Source: Candidatus Gastranaerophilales bacterium (GTDB lineage: Bacteria; Cyanobacteriota; Vampirovibrionia; Gastranaerophilales; Gastranaerophilaceae). Taken from it: 64,000 bases of DNA. Each line of letters opens with the position of its first letter. The stretch's first letter is position 1. The stretch lies in the NCBI GenBank assembly GCA_944325575.1, contig CALVAR010000010.1:1-64000 (forward strand), given 5' to 3'. Made by a program: the position numbers and the translations under genes. Positions 39,577-41,938 of this stretch are shown here, one piece after another. The notes beneath the pieces were generated by a model, which saw only the letters and a list, made by a program, of their open reading frames with translations, did no database searches and had not been told where the DNA came from.

Positions 39577-40713
39577 TCATCTCAACTGAATAGGCATAAT
39601 CAAGCTGAGATAATCATCACCGCTGTCCGGTTTAAAAAGTGTAGCGGAAAGACTGCCGCCAAGACCTATTTTTACATTTGGAGATTCCATTGTCTTGAGC
39701 GAATCCAGTACATATCTGTAATTAAATGCAATTGTAAGCTCTTCATCAGTATACTGTGCAGGTATAGAATCTTCGCCAAGTCCGGCATCAGGTGTATCAG
39801 CTTTTAAGAAAAGCGTATTTTCTCCAAATATAAATTTAACAATATTTGTTCTTTCGTTAACCATAACAGCAACTCTCTCAAGAGCAGATATCATATCTTC
39901 TCTTACGATAAGTGCGTTCTTTTCGCAAGACTGAGGAATCAACTGTTTATACGGAGGATACTCGCCTTCCAGCAGTCTTGATGACATTATCATAGATGCC
40001 GTTTTGAATATAATTCTTGTTTTTTCTATATAAAGATTGAGTTTTTCATCTTTTACAAAAGAAGCTATTCTTAAAAACTCCTGCAATGTTTTGGACGGAA
40101 TTACACAGTTAATTTCATCAGTATTTGTATTTGCATTTGATATTTTTTCAACAATTCTTGTAAGTCTGTTTCCGTCAGTTGCTGCCATTTCAAGTTCATC
40201 TTTCGAAATAGTGCACAAAACACCGCTTATAATATTTCTGCTTTCATAATTTGCTGCAGAATATGCCGTATATTTTATACATTTGATAAAAGGATTCAAA
40301 TCAATTTCTACAGGCTGAACGGTTTTTAAATCTTCTTCATTTATTGTTTCGGGGAATTCGTCAGCGGATATACCGATAAGTTCAAATTTTGAATTTCCGC
40401 AGATGATATTAACAGCATTAGTTTCTTCATTGAGAGAAAAAACAATCGGTTTGTTGCTCAATTTTGATACAATTTCAGAAAGTTTTTTGGCAGGGAGTGT
40501 AATTTTTCCGGGAGTTTTTACGGATGCAATAGTTTTTGACACAATATTTATATCAAGGTCTGTTGCACAAAATGTAATATAATTGTCAGATGATGCATCT
40601 ATTAATATATTGGAAAGTACCGGCTGGATACCTCTTGTTACCGTAGTTTTTTCTACAATTTTTAAATTAGTAAGAAGAGATTCTTTTTCTATCGTAAATT
40701 CCATGTTTGCCAT
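39577..40713 (-). CDS. dnaN: DNA polymerase III beta subunit (sliding clamp)
   Basis: A 378-residue clamp that encircles DNA and tethers polymerase III. Three repeats of the clamp fold are recognisable: MEFTIEKESLLTNLKIVEK with LSNILIDAS and ITLPAKKLSEIVSKL; VIPSKTLQEFLRIA in the second; ISALERVAVMVNERTNIVKF in the third. The end, DYLSLIMPIQLR, matches the conserved clamp C-terminus. GGGAG precedes the ATG. Its upstream region is a strong origin candidate, as in many cyanobacteria, where oriC lies beside dnaN. Confidence 0.95.
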   Translation of the reverse strand: MANMEFTIEKESLLTNLKIVEKTTVTRGIQPVLSNILIDASSDNYITFCATDLDINIVSKTIASVKTPGKITLPAKKLSEIVSKLSNKPIVFSLNEETNAVNIICGNSKFELIGISADEFPETINEEDLKTVQPVEIDLNPFIKCIKYTAYSAANYESRNIISGVLCTISKDELEMAATDGNRLTRIVEKISNANTNTDEINCVIPSKTLQEFLRIASFVKDEKLNLYIEKTRIIFKTASMIMSSRLLEGEYPPYKQLIPQSCEKNALIVREDMISALERVAVMVNERTNIVKFIFGENTLFLKADTPDAGLGEDSIPAQYTDEELTIAFNYRYVLDSLKTMESPNVKIGLGGSLSATLFKPDSGDDYLSLIMPIQLR

Positions 40714-40750
40714 TTTTATATTTCTCCCGATAAATCTTTTTCTGAATGAA

Positions 40751-41005
40751 AGTTCTTATTTATAATATTAATAATATATAAATATATAAAATAATAATAA
40801 TAATAAAGAAACAAAAAACTGTATAAAACTATTATAAATCAAACAATATAAAGCACAAAGCCTGTTCAAAACTTTGTAAATTTTCTGTATAAAACTTGTT
40901 CAAAATTGTAGATAACTTTTTGTCTTTTATTTTTTCTGTTCAAAACCCCAACTTTTTAAACAGATTTTGAACAGGAAAAATTGAGTTTTGAACAGGTTTT
41001 CTACA
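40751..41005. other. Candidate replication origin (oriC)
   Basis: Two parts. An unwinding-type tract at about 40751-40806 is almost pure A/T with ATATAAATATATAAA and repeated AAT. Then come 9-mers close to the cyanobacterial DnaA box TTTTCCACA. TTTTGAACA occurs at 40863-40871, 40897-40905 and 40937-40945 (minus strand) and at 40965-40973 and 40986-40994 (plus). TTATCTACA is at 40907-40915 (minus) and TTTTCTACA at 40997-41005, each one base from a classical box. TTTTATACA (40820-40828, 40886-40894, minus) and TTTTAAACA (40954-40962) are weaker. One further TTTTGAACA is at 41153-41161. Confidence 0.6.
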
Positions 41006-41041
41006 AGAAGAAAATAAAAATTTTTACATGATAATACAAAT

Positions 41042-41077
41042 AAAAAGCATGGGTGATTCCCAAAACCTTTTCCATGC
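41042..41077 (-). terminator. Terminator of the 43174-41095 gene group
   Basis: On the minus strand GCATGG/CCATGC with inner GGTTTTGGGAATCACC, followed by TTTTTATTTG; the plus strand has TTATTTTT on its own side, so it may act in both directions and insulate the origin region. Confidence 0.7.
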
Positions 41078-41094
41078 CTTATTTTTAACTTTAC

Positions 41095-41394
41095 TTAATA
41101 ATTTTTGAAATCATTTGCTTTTTTATCGTGGAGCCAGCGTGCCATTTTTTGCTGTTCAAAACTCAATGCAAAGTTGTATAAACTTTCCATCAAATTCCTT
41201 CCTGACGGGGAATTTCCGATAAACAAAAAGTTTCCGGCTTTGTTTTTTGCAATGTATATTTCTTTTTGCAAAATTCTGTCTACATTGCTTTTTGCGGGGG
41301 ATTCAATTTTCATTTTGAGCCACGCATAAAGAAGCGAAACAGAAGGTTTTTGTTCGTTATTTTTTAAAAAATCAGAAAATTCTTTTAAAATCAT
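41095..41394 (-). CDS. Small hypothetical protein
   Basis: A 99-residue soluble protein, mostly helical, with no domain I recognise. The middle reads RILQKEIYIAKNKAGNFLFIGNSPSGRNLMESLYNFA and the end is basic (WLHDKKANDFKNY). The start lies one base after the stop of the isochorismatase gene, so it is probably co-transcribed. It contains one of the TTTTGAACA boxes in its coding sequence. It is the nearest gene on the right of the origin candidate. Confidence 0.55.
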   Translation of the reverse strand: MILKEFSDFLKNNEQKPSVSLLYAWLKMKIESPAKSNVDRILQKEIYIAKNKAGNFLFIGNSPSGRNLMESLYNFALSFEQQKMARWLHDKKANDFKNY

Positions 41395-41395
41395 A

Positions 41396-41938
41396 TTATT
41401 TTATTAATGCCTGAACCTCTTTAAAATTAGGGTGTTTAGATGATTTGAGCATTTCAAAAATTACCATTTCTGTTGTGAGTATTTTTGCCCCTTCTTTTTC
41501 CATAAGGTTTATACCTGCTTTGAATTCATCTGTTTCTCTTGATGCGCAGGCATCTTTTACAACAAAAACATTGTATCCCTTCTGTAGTAAAGAAATTGCT
41601 GTCTGGTATACACAGATGTGAGTTTCTATGCCGAATATAAATACATTTTTTGTGCCGGCAATGGCTTCTTCTACCCCCTGTGTTTCCAATGCATTGAAAC
41701 TTGTTTTTTCAAAATATTGAGCATTGTCCGGCAGACAGTATTTTACATCCGGAATTGTTGAACCCAGACCTTTCGGGTATTGTTCCGTAAGGATTGTTTT
41801 TATTCCTAGTATTTTTGCTGCTTTTGCCAGTATTTCTGCTTTTTTTGCGCATTTGTTTTTTGTCAGCATAGCGACAAGTTTTTCCTGTACATCAATAAAC
41901 AAAAAAGCCGAGTTTTGTGTTGTTATATCTATTGTCAT
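41396..41938 (-). CDS. Isochorismatase-family hydrolase (YcaC-like)
   Basis: A 180-residue cysteine hydrolase. The triad is visible: Asp16 in FLFIDVQEKL, Lys78 in FEKTSFNAL and Cys109 in GIETHICVYQTA, with the family's cis-peptide GIETHIC loop. Length is near that of YcaC-like proteins. Substrate is not predictable; nicotinamide or isochorismate enzymes have different surrounding motifs. It sits 12 bases after the REC-GGDEF gene. Confidence 0.85.
   Translation of the reverse strand: MTIDITTQNSAFLFIDVQEKLVAMLTKNKCAKKAEILAKAAKILGIKTILTEQYPKGLGSTIPDVKYCLPDNAQYFEKTSFNALETQGVEEAIAGTKNVFIFGIETHICVYQTAISLLQKGYNVFVVKDACASRETDEFKAGINLMEKEGAKILTTEMVIFEMLKSSKHPNFKEVQALIK

Follow-up and report, generated by a model that had tools for sequence, protein, structure and literature searches.

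A probable replication origin beside dnaN in Gastranaerophilales with shifted DnaA boxes and a replaced DnaA contact residue

The intergenic region beside dnaN in a Candidatus Gastranaerophilales genome is best explained, with a probability that we put at roughly 0.88, as a chromosomal replication origin (oriC) with shifted DnaA boxes, in which a change at box position 6 is paired with the replacement of Asp433 by Lys in DnaA. That the locus is the oriC seems to us highly probable, and its words of consensus TTWTN[A/T]ACA are very probably DnaA boxes, judging from their arrangement and conservation. The cluster of words, its conservation, a skew switch in relatives and a layout of fixed spacings bear out the proposal of an initial sequence-only reading that an oriC was likely to lie beside dnaN. 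The altered DnaA box that it also proposed holds as to the shift itself; the extent proves broader than proposed, with T or A in place of C at position 6 throughout the class. Gastranaerophilales (Melainabacteria/Vampirovibrionia) are non-photosynthetic gut relatives of cyanobacteria. The source genome is a draft of 38 contigs and 2.02 Mb, from which a stretch of 64,000 nucleotides (the window) was analysed.

The gene for the DNA polymerase III sliding clamp, dnaN, occupies 39577-40713 on the minus strand (TIGR00663, 288.7 bits against a cut-off of 137.65), and the box region lies upstream of it, between dnaN and a small ORF. This placement, a trait of cyanobacterial oriC, was found in the window and in 20 of 20 relatives, which are named genomes with close dnaN matches (19 Candidatus Gastranaerophilales and one uncultured bacterium). 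Ten box-like 9-mers fall within 186 bp (40820-41005). Where at least seven had been described, all seven are present (five TTTTGAACA, TTATCTACA and TTTTCTACA), and they are joined by three variants, TTTTATACA at 40820 and 40886 (both minus strand) and TTTTAAACA at 40954 (plus strand). Read from the far side toward dnaN, the array begins with a plus-strand tandem pair whose boxes are 11 bp apart: TTTTCTACA at 40997-41005 (word search and alignment; several relatives read TTTTGAACA) and TTTTGAACA at 40986-40994, the second box of this conserved distal pair, recognized by the tandem-pair pattern. Two plus-strand boxes follow, both from the word search, namely TTTTGAACA at 40965-40973 and, 11 bp from it and in register, a possible box TTTTAAACA at 40954-40962. 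The remainder are on the minus strand: TTTTGAACA at 40937-40945 (word search and alignment; many relatives read TTTTCTACA here), TTATCTACA at 40907-40915, TTTTGAACA at 40897-40905 and, 11 bp from the last and in register, TTTTATACA at 40886-40894 (all three from the word search), then TTTTGAACA at 40863-40871 (word search and alignment). Exactly 43 bp on from this box lies TTTTATACA at 40820-40828, placed by the alignment of 13 genus members.

Is the altered box peculiar to one genome? Across 21 dnaN-upstream regions (the window plus the 20 relatives), TTTTGAACA leads all 9-mers with 87 copies, and TTTTCTACA has 44; each occurs in 21 of 21. For a wider sample, further genomes were placed by their reported genus, family, order, class and phylum relative to the source genome, box types were named by bases 5-6 of TTWTNNACA, and expected counts were drawn from dinucleotide shuffles. 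Observed counts, with expected counts in brackets, were GA 24 (0.4), CT 11 (0.1) and AT 5 (0.4) in five pooled genus members; CT 31 (0.2) and GA 7 (0.4) in other genera of the family; CT 34 (0.4) and GA 12 (0.5) in other families of the order; and CT 8 (0.2), CA 6 (0.4) and GA 5 (0.4) in other families of the class. The CC box, of the TTTTCCACA type, was absent from the 36 class members pooled and occurs in other members of the phylum, with 15 copies (0.1 expected) in ten pooled genomes from outside the class; we take the CC-box genomes to be cyanobacteria and other phylum members. On these counts, the departure from CC characterizes the class as a whole and is not peculiar to the source genome. 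Since CT prevails in most of the other genera and families, it is probably the older form, GA boxes having become common later in the source genus. In the alignment of 13 genus members, TTTTCTACA and TTTTGAACA interchange at homologous sites, an argument for a single protein reading both, and the site next to the trio carries TTTTATACA, TTTTGAACA or TTTTAAACA. In 23 of 23 genus genomes there are tandem pairs whose boxes are separated by 2 bp, mostly beside dnaN.

The initiator gene, dnaA, is intact and lies on another contig (C18), with a full-length TIGR00362 match of 501 bits against a cut-off of 343.9. The domain IV contact residues of DnaA are R399, D433, H434 and T435. When domain IV was aligned to solved DnaA structures, with base contacts taken from later papers, the source DnaA was found to keep Arg399, His434 and Thr435 and to carry Lys in place of Asp433 (E. 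coli numbering). The co-evolved domain IV that a shifted consensus had been said to imply thus has a counterpart in a changed contact residue, and by its sequence the protein is a variant DnaA, not a non-member of the initiator family. The comparison was limited to genomes whose box type is clear: Asp433 is found in 11 of 11 with CC boxes (10 families), while those with CT or GA boxes have Lys433 in 34 of 35 and Arg433 in one of 35. Of the 70 columns compared (385-454), 433 alone shows no overlap between the box groups. Positions 399, 401, 422, 423, 432, 434, 435, 438 and 439 all overlap, and the other domain IV contacts among them (401, 422, 432, 438 and 439) were rejected as specificity candidates on that ground. 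The Arg433 family, f15, comprises four genomes in all; in 3 of 3 examined at the locus (L105, L107 and L217), TTATTGACA, with G at position 6, adjoins the trio-like repeat, and TTGACAG occurs 8 times against 0.3 expected, again in 3 of 3. One Asn433 and one Gln433 genome, each a single case, carry repeated TTATAAACA and TTATCAACA.

Does residue 433 set the box? We lean toward the view that it is a main cause of the altered preference, as the separation of the groups would suggest. Against this stands the base that changed, which is 6, whereas D433 has been assigned to base pair 7 (PMC8235120); the neighbouring position would fit a direct contact and does not prove one. On the tree, Asp and Lys part only once, which leaves few independent events, the Arg-G family being a second, smaller one. 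Moreover, the choice between GA and CT boxes varies among DnaAs that all have Lys433, and residue 433 therefore does not explain everything. Family f12, whose DnaA has Thr433, also speaks against the general picture, as it retains a trio-like repeat and shows no clear boxes of this type. More tentatively still, 433 may read box position 6 by a code (Asp with C, Lys with T or A, Arg with G, perhaps Asn or Gln with A), in which case the class would be a natural series in which the initiator and all origin boxes were re-specified together.

The boxes might instead have been shifted by A/T mutation pressure at a genuine oriC, tolerated by DnaA, with residue 433 incidental. The A/T-rich genome, an association of residue and box that rests mainly on one split, and a box position 5 known to be variable where other positions are contacted (PMC5043019) speak in favor of such drift. 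However, CT and GA boxes retain G or C at position 5 and are far more frequent than in same-composition shuffles, families with GC near 0.5 (f15) are also without CC boxes, and 433 alone among the described base-contacting residues fully separates the groups; we consider drift an unlikely explanation.

The clustering of the words supports their reading as an origin with DnaA boxes. In the window TTTTGAACA occurs 8 times against 3.0 +/- 1.7 in shuffles, and in the whole genome 124 times against 99 for the reversed control, barely enriched overall. By our own arithmetic, the genome-wide rate would give about 0.008 copies in 132 bp, where five are found, and since TTTTGAACA is not frequent genome-wide, this is a real cluster; the word is concentrated at the locus and not equally dense across the genome. 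Skew was assessed on long contigs of relatives (323-400 kb) and by third positions, the 38-contig source draft permitting a local view only. GC skew and third-position GC skew flip sign at dnaN in three relatives, G021 of the same genus, G106 of the same family and G046 of the same order, and this places the switch where the origin had been proposed. In G046 and G021 the cumulative curve reaches its minimum 317 bp and 968 bp, respectively, from the start of dnaN. For G106 the raw curve dips lower at a point 177 kb distant, but its third-position skew changes sign at dnaN. When boxes were counted in 250-bp windows, the region upstream of dnaN came out densest in G021 (6 boxes) and G106 (7), with 2 in the next best window, but it did not stand out in G046. 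In the source window itself, third-position skew is -0.16 to the left of 40.9 kb and +0.02 to the right.

The layout adds a further line of evidence. On the dnaN side of the box at 40820-40828, 13 nt separate it from a DnaA-trio-like (TTA)n repeat (TTATTATTATTATTATTT, 40789-40806, minus strand), and the A/T tract and dnaN complete the order. The tract, an A/T-only run that had been noted before the boxes, spans 52 bp (40756-40807), is the longest such run of the window and is A/T-rich in 13 genus members; this conserved stretch beside the boxes is a probable DNA unwinding element. A basal unwinding system was defined as a DnaA box, a spacer of at most 16 nt and at least three trinucleotides with a central A; here TTTTATACA, 13 nt and (TTA)5 stand in that order, which recurs across families. 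Other families of the class have CTACTACTA at the trio position; in many of them CTACTACTA-like repeats come after TTTTCTACA or TTATCTACA, and a second box stands 42-44 bp behind. From this arrangement, we infer that DnaA would bind the roughly ten boxes, that the box at 40820-40828 would direct it onto the (TTA)n trio, and that the 52-bp A/T tract would then open and the helicase be loaded; across most of the class, the position-6 change accompanies the Asp433 to Lys replacement, whose causal part is likewise putative.

Could the words be operators of another dnaN regulator? LexA-like repressors have GAAC half sites. GAAC does lie inside TTTTGAACA and the cluster is upstream of dnaN, but neighbouring words are arranged as direct repeats in tandem, 11 bp apart, and as inverted sets with wide spacing. 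Short palindromes suited to a LexA-type operator were not found, and this reading was rejected on that ground. The words also interchange with TTTTCTACA, one base off a classical DnaA box, keep a fixed distance to the trio and coincide with the skew switch, all of which makes an operator array very improbable. A chance cluster in A/T-rich intergenic DNA, in line with the lack of a clear raw GC-skew minimum in the 64-kb window alone, can be dismissed in view of the retention of the words in all relatives, their excess over dinucleotide shuffles and the skew switch in relatives.

How does this origin compare with known ones? Cyanobacterial oriC lies beside dnaN with TTTTCCACA boxes in Synechococcus PCC 7942, Anabaena PCC 7120 and Cyanothece 51142 (PMC4674748). 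The present locus shares the site beside dnaN, boxes in both orientations, an A/T-rich stretch and 9-mers of the form TTTT...ACA. It differs in that TTTTCCACA boxes are absent from the 36 class members pooled, position 6 being T or A and not C and GA boxes differing at position 5 as well, and in that Asp433 of DnaA, described as highly conserved in all bacterial classes (PMC8235120), is replaced by Lys. Furthermore, a 13-nt gap separates the last box from the trio here, while the last box of several CC-box relatives directly precedes GCCC-CTACTACTA. The order of box, 13-nt spacer, trinucleotide repeat and A/T-rich DNA matches the basal unwinding system known from Bacillus subtilis and many bacteria, in which box, spacer and trio follow one another (PMC8287927), except that the box is divergent and the trio, in this A/T-rich genus, consists of TTA repeats that have drifted from CTA. 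Epsilonproteobacterial origins have a class-specific box core, TTCAC, attributed to domain IV helix 5 (PMC5043019). There too the core changed class-wide, but position 5 became fixed as T with the Asp-His pair kept, while here position 6 changed and Asp433 was replaced. A literature search found neither TTTTGAACA nor TTTTCTACA, nor their reverse complements, as words, and nothing joining Melainabacteria with DnaA boxes. The locus is thus ordinary in kind as an oriC, and as far as the searched papers go, a class-wide shifted box together with a replaced contact residue is undescribed.

To our knowledge, DnaA and DnaA boxes are close to universal. A class in which residue 433 and the box core both differ offers a direct test of how an essential initiator and its many sites can be re-specified without a lethal intermediate, and the mixture of CT, GA, AT and AA boxes in one origin hints at a tolerant intermediate. 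In practical terms, origin finders using TTATCCACA or TTTTCCACA may miss or mis-score the origins of this class, and TTWTN[A/T]ACA next to dnaN should perform better for most of its families.

Several minor observations concern the surroundings of the locus and the wider class. An Rfam scan of 40600-41500 gave no RNA element match. An inverted repeat, GCATGG...CCATGC, at 41047-41079, between a 99-aa ORF and the boxes, has similar motifs in several genus members and is possibly a transcription terminator. A sixth TTTTGAACA at 41153-41161 (minus strand) falls inside the small ORF (41095-41394, minus strand) and has a similar place in most genus members; constraint on the protein sequence, and not a role as a box, may be what preserves it. 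Autoregulation of dnaA was considered and rejected, as the regions preceding dnaA at 23 loci from the order contain no box cluster. Family f12, with Thr433 in DnaA (L235, L237, L239, L241, L243, L245, L247, L099 and L101), shows no clear TTWTNNACA boxes in its dnaN-upstream regions; several members keep a CTACTACTA-like trio, and the palindrome ACATGTA is enriched (12 against 0.8 expected, in 7 of 9 genomes). Some class members (G058, G108, G119, G139, G147 and others) are without a DnaA or DnaN family match at the thresholds used, and some of these are about 90% complete, which may reflect genuine loss or gaps in the assembly. In G031, G144, G154 and several genomes of family f24, a divergent dnaN copy is present in addition to the normal one.
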